Shown in pieces: positions 22,307 through 63,561 of a stretch of DNA of 64,000 bases. The stretch comes from Gemmatimonadetes bacterium T265 (GTDB lineage: Bacteria > Gemmatimonadota > Gemmatimonadetes > Gemmatimonadales > Gemmatimonadaceae). Where the stretch lies: positions 2,368,342 through 2,432,341 of the forward strand of contig BPUI01000001.1 of the NCBI GenBank assembly GCA_019973575.1. Reading direction: 5' to 3'. The notes beneath the pieces are model-generated. The model worked only from the letters and a program-made list of their open reading frames with translations. It did not search any database and had not been told where the DNA came from. Both the position numbers and the translations under genes were made by a program. Each line of letters starts with the position of its first letter. Positions within the stretch are counted from its first letter, which is position 1.

Positions 22307-22797
22307 TCGGCGGCGCGGGGATCCCGCGGACGTGTCCGCAACAAGGGCCTCAGCGGTCCGCGGGCGTCCGATTGGTCGAGGTTCGTGGGACCGGTCGGCG
22401 CTCGTCGGGCCAGTCCGTGGCGGCCCGACGCTTCCTTGCCGGTCATCCTGAGCGCAGCGAGGGATCGTGCGTGCGGTACACGGGGCTGTGTCGGGCCGCG
22501 ACGCTCCGCCCCGGCGTGCGGGTCTCCACGCAGTTCACAGAAGATCCTTCGCTCCGCTCAGGACGACAGGGCCGCGCTGCCCGACACGGCGGCGCTGTGT
22601 GACACAGTGAGTCCGCGCGACAGGGTAAGGTTGTTTCGCCAGGTCGGGTCGCGTGACAGGGCGGGGTCGGCGCCGCCTTCGCGCGGAGCGACGGGCCGGG
22701 CACGTTCCCGGGAGCGGTAGATTCCGGAGATTCCGGTACGGTACGGCGCGCCGTCCGCGACGACCGGACCGCCTCCGACACCGCTTCCCGGCAAGTT
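22307..22797. other. 491-bp intergenic region upstream of ettA
   Basis: It holds the REP-type inverted pair (22442-22567). Just before ettA there is a short cluster of repeats, GATTCCG twice and GGTACG twice, around 22719-22745, with a -10-like TAGATT at 22718-22723. I see no convincing coding frame here. Confidence 0.5.
22442..22567. repeat. REP-type inverted pair (REPIN-like)
   Basis: A 25-base unit at 22442-22466 (GTCATCCTGAGCGCAGCGA...) recurs in reverse orientation at 22543-22567 (its complement reads GTCGTCCTGAGCGGAGCGA...), with 76 bp between. The two agree at all but three or four positions. The same core GAGCGCAGCGA forms the loop of the terminator hairpin at 6594-6634. Inverted pairs of short palindromic units in intergenic DNA are the layout of REPIN/BIME elements. 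No RAYT transposase is in this window. Confidence 0.7.
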
Positions 22798-48523: not shown

Positions 48524-48807
48524 GGTCGGGGTCGGCGTCGCGGGGCAGTCGGGACGGATAGAGCGACGGGTGGGGCGGCAGCGGCGGCCGGGTCGGGCAC
48601 CGCCGCGGGGAGCTGCCCGGCTCCTGTCGTCCAGTCAGCCGCTGGTCCTGTCCCGTGGCTCCGCCTCGGTTTTCGGCCCCGCGGTGTTCGGAACCGCCCC
48701 AAGACCTATCCGCAAGCGCTTATCTGGCACGCTCCCCGACCCACGCCCTACCCGCCGCTCTACCCGTCCCGACCGCCCCGCGACGCTCGACACCGCGGCC
48801 GCCCCGC
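48524..48807. other. Gap between convergent OprB-like porin and GH15 genes
   Basis: 284 bp without a credible gene. I see no strong hairpin. The GCCTAACG word at 48806-48811 supplies the GH15 stop codon. Confidence 0.4.
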
Positions 48808-58825: not shown

Positions 58826-60817
58826 ATGCGCTCGTCCTTCTCCGCCACCGCCGTCGCAACCGCGGTCGTCCTCTCCTGCGCCGCCTCGCTCGCCTGCGCG
58901 CAACCCGCCCGGCAGCCCGCCGCCTCGCCGACGGTGCCCCGCTCGCTCTTCCCCGAGTCGGACTCCGCGTTCGTCCGCGCCGCCTACACGAAGCGCGAAT
59001 ACCGCGTGCCGATGCGCGACGCCGTGAAGCTCTTCACGATCGTCTACGTCCCGAAAGACGCGGGTGCGGGGACGCAGTACCCGTTCGTCATGCAGCGCAC
59101 CTGCTACTCGATCGCGCCATACGGCCCCGACGCGTACGCACCGACGATCGGCCCCGACCCGTTCATGCTGCGCGAGAAGTACATCTTCGTCTACCAGGAC
59201 GTCCGCGGCCGGTACAACAGCGAGGGCAGGTGGACCAACGTCCGCCCCGTGCTGAGCGACGCCGAGAAGGCGCGCGACCCGAAGGCGGTCGACGAGGCGA
59301 GCGACACGTACGACACGATCGACTGGCTGCTGAAGAACGTCCCCGGCAACAACGGCAAGGTCGGCCAGTGGGGGATCAGCTACCCCGGCTTCTTTACCTC
59401 ACTCGGCGCGCTCTCGCGCCACCCCGCGCTCGTCGCGTCGAGCCCGCAGGCGCCGGTCACGGACTTCTACTTCGAAGACTTCCACCACAACGGCGCGCTG
59501 ACGCAGGGGTACTTCTACACGTACCCGATCTTCGGGATCGCGACCGGCGGCCCGCGCACCGACGACTGGTGGGTGCCGAAGATGGTCCAGGAGGGCCACA
59601 ACGACGACTACGATTTCCAGTTAGGCCTCGGCCCCCTCCGCACGACGACGGACCGCTACTACCGCGACAACTTCTTCTGGCAGGAGATCATCGAACACCC
59701 GGACTACGACGCGTTCTGGCAGGCGCGCGCCGTGCCGCCACACCTGACCGGGATCAAGCACGCGGTGATGACCGTCGGCGGCTGGTTCGACGCGGAGGAC
59801 CTCTACGGCCCGCTCACCGTCTACAAGACGATCGACAAGAACAGCCCGGGCATCTACAACACGATCGTCGAGGGGCCGTTCCGCCACGGCGGGTGGGCGC
59901 GCCAGGGCGTCGAGCACACGCTCCACGGCGACCTGTATTTCGGCGACTCGCTCGAGACCAAGTTCCAGCGCAACGTCGAGGCCGTGTTCTTCCGCCACTG
60001 GCTCAAGGGCGCGGCCGACGGCAAGACGGGTCTCCCCGACGCGCTGATGTTCGACACGGGGCGCAAGGAGTGGCGGAGCTTCGACGCGTGGCCGGCGAAG
60101 ACGGCGCGGACGCGGAGCTACTACCTGCGCAGCCCGGGCGGGCTCGCGCCGGTGGCGCCGAACGCGAACTCCACCGGCCCGGGGCGCCCGGCCCCGTACC
60201 TGGAGTACGTGAGCGACCCGTCCCGCCCGGTGCCGAGCCGCTGCCTCGCGCCGACGATCCAGGGGCTGACGATGTACCAGTACATGAGCGACGACCAGCG
60301 GTGCTTCGACGGGCGCCGGGACGTGCTCACCTTTACGACCGACACGCTCCGCGAGGACGTGACGTTAGGCGGCGAGATCACCGCGCGGCTCAAGGTGAGC
60401 ACGACCGGCGCGGACGGCGACTTCGTCGTCAAGCTCATCGACGTCTACCCGATGAGCGAGCCCGACCACCCGTACATGCCCTACAAGAACGTGCACCTCG
60501 CCGGCTACCAGCAGCTCGTGCGCGGCGAGATCATGCGCGGGCGCTACCGGAAGGGCTTCGCGCGGCCGACGCCGATGACGCCCGGCGCGGTCGAGGACGT
60601 CACGTTCCGGCTGCAGGACGTGCTGCACACGTTCAAGAAGGGGCACCGGATGATGGTGCAGGTGCAGAGCTCGTGGTTCCCGGCCTTCGACCGCAACCCG
60701 CAGACGTACGTGCCCAACATCTACGAGGCCAAGTCGACCGATTTCGTGCCGGCGACGGTGCGGGTGTATACGAACGTGGCGAATGCGAGCCGGGTGGACG
60801 TGCAGGTGGTGCCGTGA
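58826..60817 (+). CDS. CocE/NonD family hydrolase (X-Pro dipeptidyl-peptidase S15-like)
   Basis: 663 residues. The signal peptide is AVATAVVLSCAASLACAQ. The alpha/beta-hydrolase core begins VPMRDAVKLFTIVYVPKDAG; QDVRGRYNSEGRW is the usual block before the nucleophile, which is Ser185 in QWGISYPGFFTSLGALS. The Asp region is HAVMTVGGWFDAEDLYGP and the His region is IVEGPFRHGGWARQG. The C-terminal jelly-roll (X-Pro_C) domain starts near LTFTTDTLREDVTLGGEITA. Relatives include glutaryl-7-ACA acylases, alpha-amino-acid ester hydrolases and cocaine esterase. It is exported, and cleaves amides or esters of unknown nature. Confidence 0.92.
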   Translation: MRSSFSATAVATAVVLSCAASLACAQPARQPAASPTVPRSLFPESDSAFVRAAYTKREYRVPMRDAVKLFTIVYVPKDAGAGTQYPFVMQRTCYSIAPYGPDAYAPTIGPDPFMLREKYIFVYQDVRGRYNSEGRWTNVRPVLSDAEKARDPKAVDEASDTYDTIDWLLKNVPGNNGKVGQWGISYPGFFTSLGALSRHPALVASSPQAPVTDFYFEDFHHNGALTQGYFYTYPIFGIATGGPRTDDWWVPKMVQEGHNDDYDFQLGLGPLRTTTDRYYRDNFFWQEIIEHPDYDAFWQARAVPPHLTGIKHAVMTVGGWFDAEDLYGPLTVYKTIDKNSPGIYNTIVEGPFRHGGWARQGVEHTLHGDLYFGDSLETKFQRNVEAVFFRHWLKGAADGKTGLPDALMFDTGRKEWRSFDAWPAKTARTRSYYLRSPGGLAPVAPNANSTGPGRPAPYLEYVSDPSRPVPSRCLAPTIQGLTMYQYMSDDQRCFDGRRDVLTFTTDTLREDVTLGGEITARLKVSTTGADGDFVVKLIDVYPMSEPDHPYMPYKNVHLAGYQQLVRGEIMRGRYRKGFARPTPMTPGAVEDVTFRLQDVLHTFKKGHRMMVQVQSSWFPAFDRNPQTYVPNIYEAKSTDFVPATVRVYTNVANASRVDVQVVP

Positions 60818-60829
60818 GGGGGGCGGAGG

Positions 60830-61006
60830 CGACGGCGCGGTTGAACCCCGACTGTTGGTCGGGCGCAGTTGGTAACGCGCTGGTGGTGGGGCGGTGTTGG
60901 AACGGCGGGTCGAGCCGGCCACGGGCAGCGCCGTTCCAATCGCGCTGCATCAACCGCGGTTGATCAACAGCGCCCGACCAACAGCCGGGGTTCAGCCGCG
61001 CCGTCG
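60830..61006. repeat. 177-bp nested inverted repeat between convergent genes
   Basis: The outer arms, 60830-60866 and 60970-61006 (37 bp each), are reverse complements with only two mismatches, one of them a possible G-U pair. Inside is a perfect 11-bp inverted repeat TTGGAACGGCG / CGCCGTTCCAA (60897-60907, 60929-60939). Two overlapping 10-bp palindromes AACCGCGGTT (60952-60961) and GTTGATCAAC (60959-60968) lie near the right arm. Either RNA strand would fold into a long rod. It lies just after the CocE-type gene and before the stop of the convergent gene. It could be a double terminator, a miniature mobile element, or a structured RNA. Confidence 0.85.
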
Positions 61007-61032
61007 ACCCCGCCCCATCACCCGCGCCGCCC

Positions 61033-63561
61033 CTACCGCGGCAGCCGCGCCAACGCGTACTGCACCGCCAGATCGCTCGTACTCCACAACTGTACGTCCC
61101 CCGCGGTCCCGTACCGCACCGCCGCCGGTCGCCCGTCGCGGAACTCGTAGCTCCACAGCTCCGACCGGAACCCGGACGCGGCGACCGCGCCTAACACCCG
61201 CGCCATCGCCGACCGGAACGCGCCGGCGAGCGGCCCCGCCGGCGCCGCCGCGACGTGGTTCGCCGCGCCGAGCACGAACAGGTTGGCCTCGCGCCCCCAC
61301 ACCACGCGCGGGCCGTGGTACGGGTCGCGCGCGAACGCCTCCCACACCGCCGGCGGCGCGTAGGCGTCGTTCGCCACGACCGGCCCGACCCGGGCGACGT
61401 ACAGTCCGACCGGGTAGTCGCGCACGAACAGCCCGACGTCGCGCCGCACCCGCGCCGCCGCGTCCTCGCCGGGGCTCGCGACCTCGGCCTCCGTGTCGCC
61501 CAGGAACAGGCGCGTCGCCGGGTCGGTGTTGGCGATCCCGATCGGGCGCCCGTTCTCGTCGAGCGAGACGGCGACGAAGGTGAGCGAGTCCCGGTCCGCC
61601 CCCGAGCGCGCAAGCAGCCCCTCCCAGTATGCCCGCTCGTTCTCCGGCATCGCGCCGAGCCGGGCCGCGACGTCCGCCCGCACCTCCGCGGGCCCGAGCC
61701 GCACGACGAAGTGGCGCTCCGCCCCGCGCCACGCCCGCACCGCGCGCCCGAGCGCGGCCGAGTCGCGCGCGTACGTGCCTAACGCCGTGCCGGCCGCGAG
61801 CTCGGGCGACGAGGCGAGCAGGGGCGGCGTCGCGATCCCGAGGCCGGGGAGCGCGCCGAGGATGCGCCCCGTCGCCTCGAGCGCGTGGGGCACCCACACC
61901 GCGTTCACGTCGTACGCGTACTTCCCGTTCGCGTAGCCGACGCGGCTGTCGCGCCAGCTGAGCCCCGTGTACTGCCCCGGCGCGCGCGAGGGGAAGTCGA
62001 CGAGGTGCGCGACCGACGAGTCGGCCGTGTAGGCGGCCGTGCGCCGGGCGACGCGGGCGAGCTCGCGGAGGAGGCGCGTCAGCCGCGTGTCGCCGCCCCG
62101 GATGTCGCCGCCCCGGATGTCGCCCCCGCCCGCATCTGCCGCGCCGAGCAGGAAGGCACGCTTGCGCGCGGCGGGCACCTGGGGGTCGGTGATCCAGCGC
62201 GCGACGAGGATCGGCACCTGGAAGTCGGTGTCGACCATGACGTAGTTCTCGCGCGTCCGGCGCGCGTCGGCGAGGACGCGACGCGCGCTGTCCAGGCTCC
62301 CGGCCCGCACGAGCCGCGCGTACTGGACGGCCGCCTCGCGCACCGCCTGCTGACCGATCGCCTCCTCGTGGCTCACCGCACCCGCGGGCGAGAGCCCGCG
62401 CAGCACGCTCCCGATCACGACTTCCAGCGCGGCGTCGCGCCAGATTGGCCGCATCATGAGCGCGGTCATGAGCTGGTCGCGCCCGAAGTACGTCGCGTAG
62501 GTCGGCAGGCCGGCCATGAACTGCTCGCGCGAGGCGAGCAGCTCGACGCCGCGCACCTGCCGTTCGAGCACGCGCGCCTGCAGCCGCACCGAGTCCGTCG
62601 CGTCCGGCCGCGCGGCGGCCGCACGCGTGCCGTCGACGAAGGCCAGGAAGTCCGGCGTGAAGATCTCGCCGCGCGCGAGCGGCGTGAGCGTCCGCCCGGT
62701 GGTCGTCACCGTTACCGTGAACGGGACGCGTGCCACCGCACCCGCGCCGCCGCTCGCCCCGCGCGACTGAAGCGTGAACGTGTCGCCCTCGCGCGCGATC
62801 GTCGCGGCCCCTGCGTCCGCGTGGAACTCGAGCGCGAGCGTGTCACGCCCGTCGAGCGACGACTGGACGACCCGGGCGACGTACGCGCCCGCGCCGGGGC
62901 GTGCCGGCGCTCGCAGCGTGAACTGCGGCTGCACGCGCGACCGGAGCGTCGCGAGGTCCGCGGCGCCGAGCAGGGCGAGGTGTTGCCGCTGCGCGGTCGT
63001 GGGGAGCTGCGCGAGCGCGTCGAGGAGAGAGTCGAACTCCGCAACGCGATAGGGTGCGCCGCCGAAGGCGACCTGCTGCCGCTTGAGATCCTGGAACTCG
63101 CGCTCGACCCGCATCGAGTTGAGGACGAACAGGCCGACCCGCACGAGCGGCCCGTCGGCGGCGAGCCGGTACGTGAAGCTCCGCGTCGTGCCCCGTCCAC
63201 CCCGCGGGGTCCGCGTTACGGTCGCCCCCGGGCCCTCCCACCGGAGTGCCGCCGGCCGGCCGGACGCGTCGCGCGCGGTGAACCCGACGCTCTCGTTTTC
63301 GGCGTCGGCCAGCAGGGTCACGACGCGGCCGTCGCGGCCGTTGAAGTACACCTGCACGGTGTTCTCGGCGGCGTCCCGGTACAGGCGCGTCTGATACCCT
63401 GCGTACGCCGCACTGTCGTCCAGCCCCGCTTCGGGGAACGCGAGGACCGGTCGGACCTCGCGCCCGGCCGCGGGCGGCGCGCGCGGCGGAACCGTCGGCG
63501 TCGCGGCGGGCGCGAGGTGCGCGCGTACGGTGAGCAACACGCCTGCGATGAGGCGCGTCAC
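61033..63561 (-). CDS. Large exported protein with six-hairpin glycosidase/debranching-like sequence
   Basis: 842 residues from GTG 63561 (MTRLIAGVLLTVRAHLAPAA, a signal peptide). The N-terminal ~350 residues are beta-rich (ALRWEGPGATVTRTPRGG, YRLAADGPLVRVGLFVLNS). From ~390 the sequence is helical, with LPTYATYFGRDQLMTALMM, close to the PxFGRDT block of glycogen-debranching-type enzymes. Then come GLSPAGAVSHEEAIGQQAV, YVMVDTDFQVPILVARWITD and SWRDSRVGYANGKYAYDVNA, which resemble (alpha/alpha)6 barrels. I infer an extracytoplasmic glycan-processing enzyme, though no family can be named with certainty. A perfect 15-bp tandem repeat at 62089-62118 encodes DIRGG twice. It has two TTA Leu-Gly words (61189, 61777). 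Confidence 0.6.
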   Translation of the reverse strand: MTRLIAGVLLTVRAHLAPAATPTVPPRAPPAAGREVRPVLAFPEAGLDDSAAYAGYQTRLYRDAAENTVQVYFNGRDGRVVTLLADAENESVGFTARDASGRPAALRWEGPGATVTRTPRGGRGTTRSFTYRLAADGPLVRVGLFVLNSMRVEREFQDLKRQQVAFGGAPYRVAEFDSLLDALAQLPTTAQRQHLALLGAADLATLRSRVQPQFTLRAPARPGAGAYVARVVQSSLDGRDTLALEFHADAGAATIAREGDTFTLQSRGASGGAGAVARVPFTVTVTTTGRTLTPLARGEIFTPDFLAFVDGTRAAAARPDATDSVRLQARVLERQVRGVELLASREQFMAGLPTYATYFGRDQLMTALMMRPIWRDAALEVVIGSVLRGLSPAGAVSHEEAIGQQAVREAAVQYARLVRAGSLDSARRVLADARRTRENYVMVDTDFQVPILVARWITDPQVPAARKRAFLLGAADAGGGDIRGGDIRGGDTRLTRLLRELARVARRTAAYTADSSVAHLVDFPSRAPGQYTGLSWRDSRVGYANGKYAYDVNAVWVPHALEATGRILGALPGLGIATPPLLASSPELAAGTALGTYARDSAALGRAVRAWRGAERHFVVRLGPAEVRADVAARLGAMPENERAYWEGLLARSGADRDSLTFVAVSLDENGRPIGIANTDPATRLFLGDTEAEVASPGEDAAARVRRDVGLFVRDYPVGLYVARVGPVVANDAYAPPAVWEAFARDPYHGPRVVWGREANLFVLGAANHVAAAPAGPLAGAFRSAMARVLGAVAASGFRSELWSYEFRDGRPAAVRYGTAGDVQLWSTSDLAVQYALARLPR

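Follow-up and report, generated by a model that had tools for sequence, protein, structure and literature searches.

The long inverted repeat at positions 60820-61016 of the window (the whole 64,000-nt stretch of T265 DNA that was analysed) belongs to a dispersed family of extragenic palindromes and is not a single-copy sequence. DNA and pattern searches of the genome gave about 28 diverged elements, built from a 14-bp unit that consists of a near-constant core, CGCTGTTG, and a 6-nt spacer. We explain them, with about even confidence, as a Gemmatimonadaceae extragenic palindrome family that would have dispersed in the past, stayed palindromic via template switching, and been tolerated at gene ends or put to use there as a two-way hairpin; its mobility and function are inferred here from sequence.

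The inverted-repeat scan gave the element an extent of 197 bp, larger than the 177 bp first noted, with a 21-nt loop between the arms. The features of the locus are listed below (coordinates in the window, strand, description).

58826..60817, + strand: S15-family peptidase gene (Peptidase_S15 and PepX_C); stop 2 nt from the element; start uncertain, open reading frame from 58739
60820..61016, no strand assigned: whole element, a long imperfect inverted repeat (hairpin) of 197 bp, from repeat scan and RNA folding
60820..60907, + strand: left arm, 88 nt, pairing with 60929-61016; 81% complementary, ungapped
60820..60835, + strand: G-rich outer section of the left arm, GGGGCGGAGGCGACGG, defined from sequence; similar outer parts occur in several other copies
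60836..60905, + strand: five directly repeated 14-bp units, CGCGGTTGAACCCC / GACTGTTGGTCGGG / CGCAGTTGGTAACG / CGCTGGTGGTGGGG / CGGTGTTGGAACGG; unit defined from the genome-wide copies
60906..60928, + strand: centre/loop, CGGGTCGAGCCGGCCACGGGCAG, resembling the centre of several copies (CGGCCCGAGCCGGCCGGGGGCAG type)
60929..61016, - strand: right arm, 88 nt, pairing with the left arm 60820-60907
60929..60998, - strand: five inverted 14-bp units that pair with the left-arm units
61033..63561, - strand: convergent gene with no Pfam match; stop 16 nt from the element; start uncertain, open reading frame to 63720

Within these limits the details described in the first-pass annotation were recovered: the 37-bp sub-arms (60830-60866 / 60970-61006) differ at exactly two positions, the inner hairpin of 11 bp is perfect (60897-60907 / 60929-60939), the two overlapping palindromes are GTTGATCAAC at 60959-60968 and CAACCGCGGTTG at 60951-60962, and the convergent gap is nearly filled, with 2 nt and 16 nt left to the flanking stop codons. 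The inverted-repeat score of the element is 94, compared to 72 for the runner-up real inverted repeat in the window and 46 for the top scorer among 20 first-order Markov sequences matched to the window in length and composition. Folding of both strands, which the same annotation had proposed as a check, yielded -161.2 kcal/mol for the + strand RNA (z -14; shuffle mean -97) and -144.3 kcal/mol for the - strand RNA (z -12.5; shuffle mean -90).

Other long hairpins were noticed in passing. One of 269 bp (window 48527-48795) fills another convergent gap, with 3 and 12 nt to the stops; it is devoid of 14-bp units, and its inner part resembles that of a hairpin at L064 18371-18644, which is also convergent, so that the two may represent a second dispersed family. 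A further repeat family in this genome consists of dispersed hairpins of the form GTCATCCTGAGCGCAGCGAAGGATC...GATCCTTCGCTGCGCTCAGGATGAC (L079 13140-13250, L076 4779-4859, L064 9274-9351, window 22439-22570, and others).

Searching the T265 genome at the DNA level gave 89 matches. With up to 3 mismatches allowed, the two-unit pattern CGCTGTTGRT-N4-CGCTGTTGRT was matched 172 times, compared to 0 for the reversed control pattern. When clustered, these correspond to the approximately 28 elements, nearly all on one contig; the census was assembled from such searches and not from a whole-genome scan, and its figures hold among the matches listed. The first-pass annotation had named a single copy lacking conservation in close relatives among the grounds for refutation, which is not what was found. 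Its suggestion of a recently inserted miniature element stands in part: the many dispersed copies speak for it, but in DNA comparisons even the better-matching ones reach no more than about 70-78% identity, and neither a target-site duplication nor a REP-type transposase was seen, so that a recent insertion is not supported.

Almost all of the copies retrieved form hairpins with 14-bp units, and a few are partial arrays. They follow a common plan, with a G-rich outer part (in many copies), direct 14-bp units, a short centre and the same units reversed, and a typical copy is an imperfect hairpin of 115-275 bp; the number of units varies between copies, the two arms of a copy may be unequal, and the ends are vague. 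The core is nearly invariant between elements, unlike the spacers. This comparison took left units that had been picked by a core pattern, but the right arm, which had not been so picked, gives a like result: core identity between elements amounts there to 0.94-1.00, with exceptions at the first (0.76) and fourth (0.62) position, compared to 0.30-0.54 for the spacers. Unit order is partly common to the copies (0.478 vs 0.450 ± 0.0055), although this value may rest mostly on the innermost unit. Common ancestry of the copies is probable, with fair support.

Of the 30 counted places of the family, 29 lie on contig C1, which makes up 53% of the assembly (p 1.6e-7; p values here and below are uncorrected for the number of tests tried), and none is listed on C2 (1.4 Mb). 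At L039 7451-7531, four 14-bp units in direct repeat are found within a predicted coding sequence. The loop of one copy contains a Mutator-family (IS256-type) insertion sequence (L030 10634-12020; G000 C1:1684633-1686019), of which a second copy, 82% identical, is located on contig C6. Its transposase was considered as the mobiliser of the family and rejected, as the insertion sequence has its own inverted ends and sits in the loop; the flank examined of the C6 copy contains no unit array.

With gene limits taken from a simple codon-usage gene caller, 24 of the 28 copies are found no more than about 50 nt from a stop codon; three of the remaining copies are in divergent gaps, and the last, a partial array, falls within a predicted gene. 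Divergent gaps are under-used both in T265 (3/28 copies, baseline 60/208 gaps) and in the relative G016 (0/20, baseline 60/210), with a combined p of 0.0004. For convergent gaps, the excess in T265 (7/28 compared to 27/208 at baseline) is not significant alone (p 0.15), and is significant in G016. The copies are placed extragenically, mostly between tandem or convergent genes, as REP and REPIN sequences are. Only about 28 of the thousands of genes have a copy, which argues against a general terminator; gene ends may be the only places that tolerate such DNA.

The spacers of units that face each other across the hairpin were compared; several of the tests reported here jointly rest on one set of 22 full-length copies. 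Paired spacers show an identity of 0.61, whereas units reshuffled within each element reach 0.466 ± 0.025 (maximum 0.56 of 2000), and full 6/6 matches across the arms were observed 14 times with 4 expected (0 of 1000). This better match of a spacer to its paired unit on the opposite arm than to other units suggests arm-to-arm copying by template switching, a process that homogenises the arms of inverted repeats (PMC8604942, PMC7202029). The excess of full matches fits this process, as slow compensatory change would leave more intermediate matches. Among transition mismatches, G.U and A.C are about equally frequent in the T265 copies (63/56 in gene sense, 87/93 on the + strand) and in G016 (50/52), and there is therefore no sign of selection on one transcript strand; a G.U bias, as RNA-specific selection would leave it, was seen in neither genome. 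The idea that the nested pairing reflects selection for structure holds only in that pairing is kept while the paired sequence changes, and its RNA part finds no counterpart in the mismatches. Template switching, a mutational process, would explain the kept pairing at least as well as selection. In a single case, with a different unit type, an orthologous gap could be compared between two congeners (G015, G042), and the hairpin was kept in both, with the arms changed together; a second G015/G042 search revealed no clear orthologous gap.

Among 99 relatives from the family and order, a set that includes no congener of T265, arrays with the core CGCTGTTG were not detected, and the lone match to this core is probably due to chance. 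The best DNA match in the relatives (L009, E 1e-5) was discarded as a member, as it falls within an apparently homologous peptidase gene and lacks a hairpin. In G016, which represents a second genus, the same 14-bp plan was found with another core, CGGCGCTG (158 matches; three other genomes with 1 match each), and all 20 sampled copies lie at a stop codon, where some extend into the predicted end of the gene. The 6-nt spacer vocabulary is common to T265 and G016 beyond base composition (0.0151 vs 0.0062 ± 0.0011), and the shared spacers argue for common descent with a changed core. Long non-coding hairpins, counted with scan thresholds set by eye, reach 98 per Mb in G016 and 90 per Mb in G015, and the other relatives sampled have fewer or none; many of those at gene ends in G016 and G015 have arms of 7-, 8-, 9- or 15-bp tandem units. 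In the G016 stretches inspected (L082-L086, L102-L121), the long non-coding hairpins lie a median of 6 nt from the stop codon. The exact pattern was also searched in 84,980 species, with 12 stretches found in unrelated bacteria, and in viral contigs, with none. Short direct arrays with the CGCTGTTGRT core and a 14-bp period were thereby seen in unrelated phyla (L050, L051, L059), the search pattern having demanded two units; these arrays (Arthrobacter, Saprospiraceae and the MAG in L059) were not accepted as members, since no hairpin was present where scanned, except one elsewhere in L051.

The locus and the family were further compared with known element classes. A RAYT/Y1 transposase (Y1_Tnp, PF01797) had no match in the assembly, which is 97.6% complete, while control genomes were positive. 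Target-site duplications, for which the first-pass annotation had recommended a search, were not seen: flank repeats amount to 4.09 compared to 4.13 for shuffled partners, with ends vague enough to hide an old or short duplication. The family thus shares with MITEs the many dispersed, non-coding, hairpin-forming copies, but not the target-site duplication, and with its copy number of about 28 and its size it departs from the high-copy 20-40 bp palindromes with a GTAG or CGTC tag that define REP and REPIN sequences, no such tag being seen by eye in the copies. Neither a terminator-like site nor a T-tract was found within 60500-61400 on either strand, and the element is therefore not a classical intrinsic terminator; a sigma-70 promoter-like site was likewise not found at the locus. 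Rfam returned only sub-threshold matches to microRNA precursors (best 63 bits, gathering 168), which any long hairpin might give.

A serious rival to the explanation given at the outset is a functionless selfish element: a non-autonomous MITE- or REPIN-like mobile element, copied, in the past or still today, by a transposase in trans, that survives behind stop codons only because insertions elsewhere would be harmful. We regard this as possible, though doubtful. It would account for the approximately 28 dispersed copies, of which several have a common centre and partly the same order of units, for the genus-specific cores, for the rarity in promoter gaps, and for the concentration of 29 of 30 places on one contig with 53% of the genome. 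It is at odds with the lack of a Y1/RAYT transposase in the genome and of a target-site duplication, with copies that are diverged, unequal in unit number and vague at their ends, and with a core far better conserved than the spacers, which the decay of dead copies would not give. A purely mutational origin, in which slippage lengthens short tandem repeats at gene ends and template switching turns them palindromic, independently at each place and with no dispersal or function, is improbable and already disfavoured; the gene-end hairpins with 7-, 8-, 9- and 15-bp units in G016 and G015 and the excess of full spacer matches would fit it, but about 28 unrelated gene ends with one core, similar centres and a common spacer vocabulary are not what independent origin would produce.

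Equally little probability is assigned to the idea that the units are arrayed binding sites of a sequence-specific protein of a nucleoid- or chromosome-organising type, for which the 14-bp core would be the site and the hairpin a side effect. A conserved core among variable spacers, a regular 14-bp spacing, and a core that differs between genera as if tracking a protein are all in line with such an array; yet spacers that match across the arms in register are needless for sites, 14 bp is a non-integral number of helix turns, and a candidate protein was not identified. That the convergent gap harbours a gene for a small RNA or a structured regulatory RNA is very improbable: the very stable fold is what such a gene would lead one to expect, but it is opposed by the missing sigma-70 promoter-like site, by the Rfam score far below gathering, and by the absence of G.U bias on either strand across the copies.

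Returning to the palindrome family shaped by template switching and located at gene ends, two steps can be proposed. One arm probably serves as the template for the other, which would be the main reason why the quasi-palindrome stays complementary, a step to which the spacer matches lend fair support. More tentatively, the element might act as a two-way hairpin at the gene end, capping transcripts from either side by 3'-end protection or as a barrier, without a T-tract; such a role would explain both the retention at stop codons and the rarity in divergent (promoter) gaps. A broader version, which we consider rather unlikely, would be a Gemmatimonadaceae-wide gene-end hairpin system in which the core is replaced in concert throughout the genome (CGCTGTTG in T265, CGGCGCTG in G016) while the variable spacers are kept; if true, concerted replacement would imply a machinery able to recognise the core and to copy or rewrite the units. 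Most extragenic palindromes are short, and many are linked to a transposase; this family is long, modular and located at stop codons. With arms that match unit by unit and a core that differs by genus, it provides a natural record of the origin and persistence of long palindromes in bacteria, and it bears on the question of whether the ends of genes in very GC-rich genomes are marked by giant hairpins.

Among known systems, REP, REPIN and BIME sequences are dispersed, intergenic palindromes that form hairpins, proposed to act as RNA hairpins (PMC3116915, PMC3733652), and they resemble the T265 elements in these properties and in lying mostly between tandem or convergent genes. They differ in length (20-40 bp, compared to 115-275 bp with arms of 14-bp tandem units) and in number (over a hundred copies, compared to about 28 without a RAYT/Y1 transposase). 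BrickBuilt, a minisatellite-bearing MITE of Porphyromonas gingivalis, is species-limited, with about 20 intergenic copies per genome and predicted long stem-loops (PMC4596501); it shares the intergenic location and the variable number of short tandem units, but its 23-nt units are flanked by a leader and a tail with small inverted ends, whereas the T265 units themselves form both arms, in opposite orientation and matching each other. The TAACTGA repeats of Beggiatoaceae (PMC4679880) are likewise intergenic arrays of a conserved heptamer, 14 bp being 2 x 7, but there the repeats are direct, with a single indirect exception, and most sit immediately before start codons. Quasipalindrome correction by template switching (PMC8604942, PMC7202029) also makes the arms of inverted repeats identical; its description comes from yeast and E. 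coli and concerns short inverted repeats, while the T265 case is deduced from sequence comparison. Intrinsic (Rho-independent) terminators place a hairpin directly 3' of a stop codon and work two-way in convergent gaps, but the T265 element has no T-tract, is several times longer, and is found at a small fraction of genes. A description of this family was not found in the open-access papers searched; nearest to it are the REP/REPIN palindromes and the BrickBuilt MITE, and it looks like a family of REP/MITE-like palindromes of a little-described kind.
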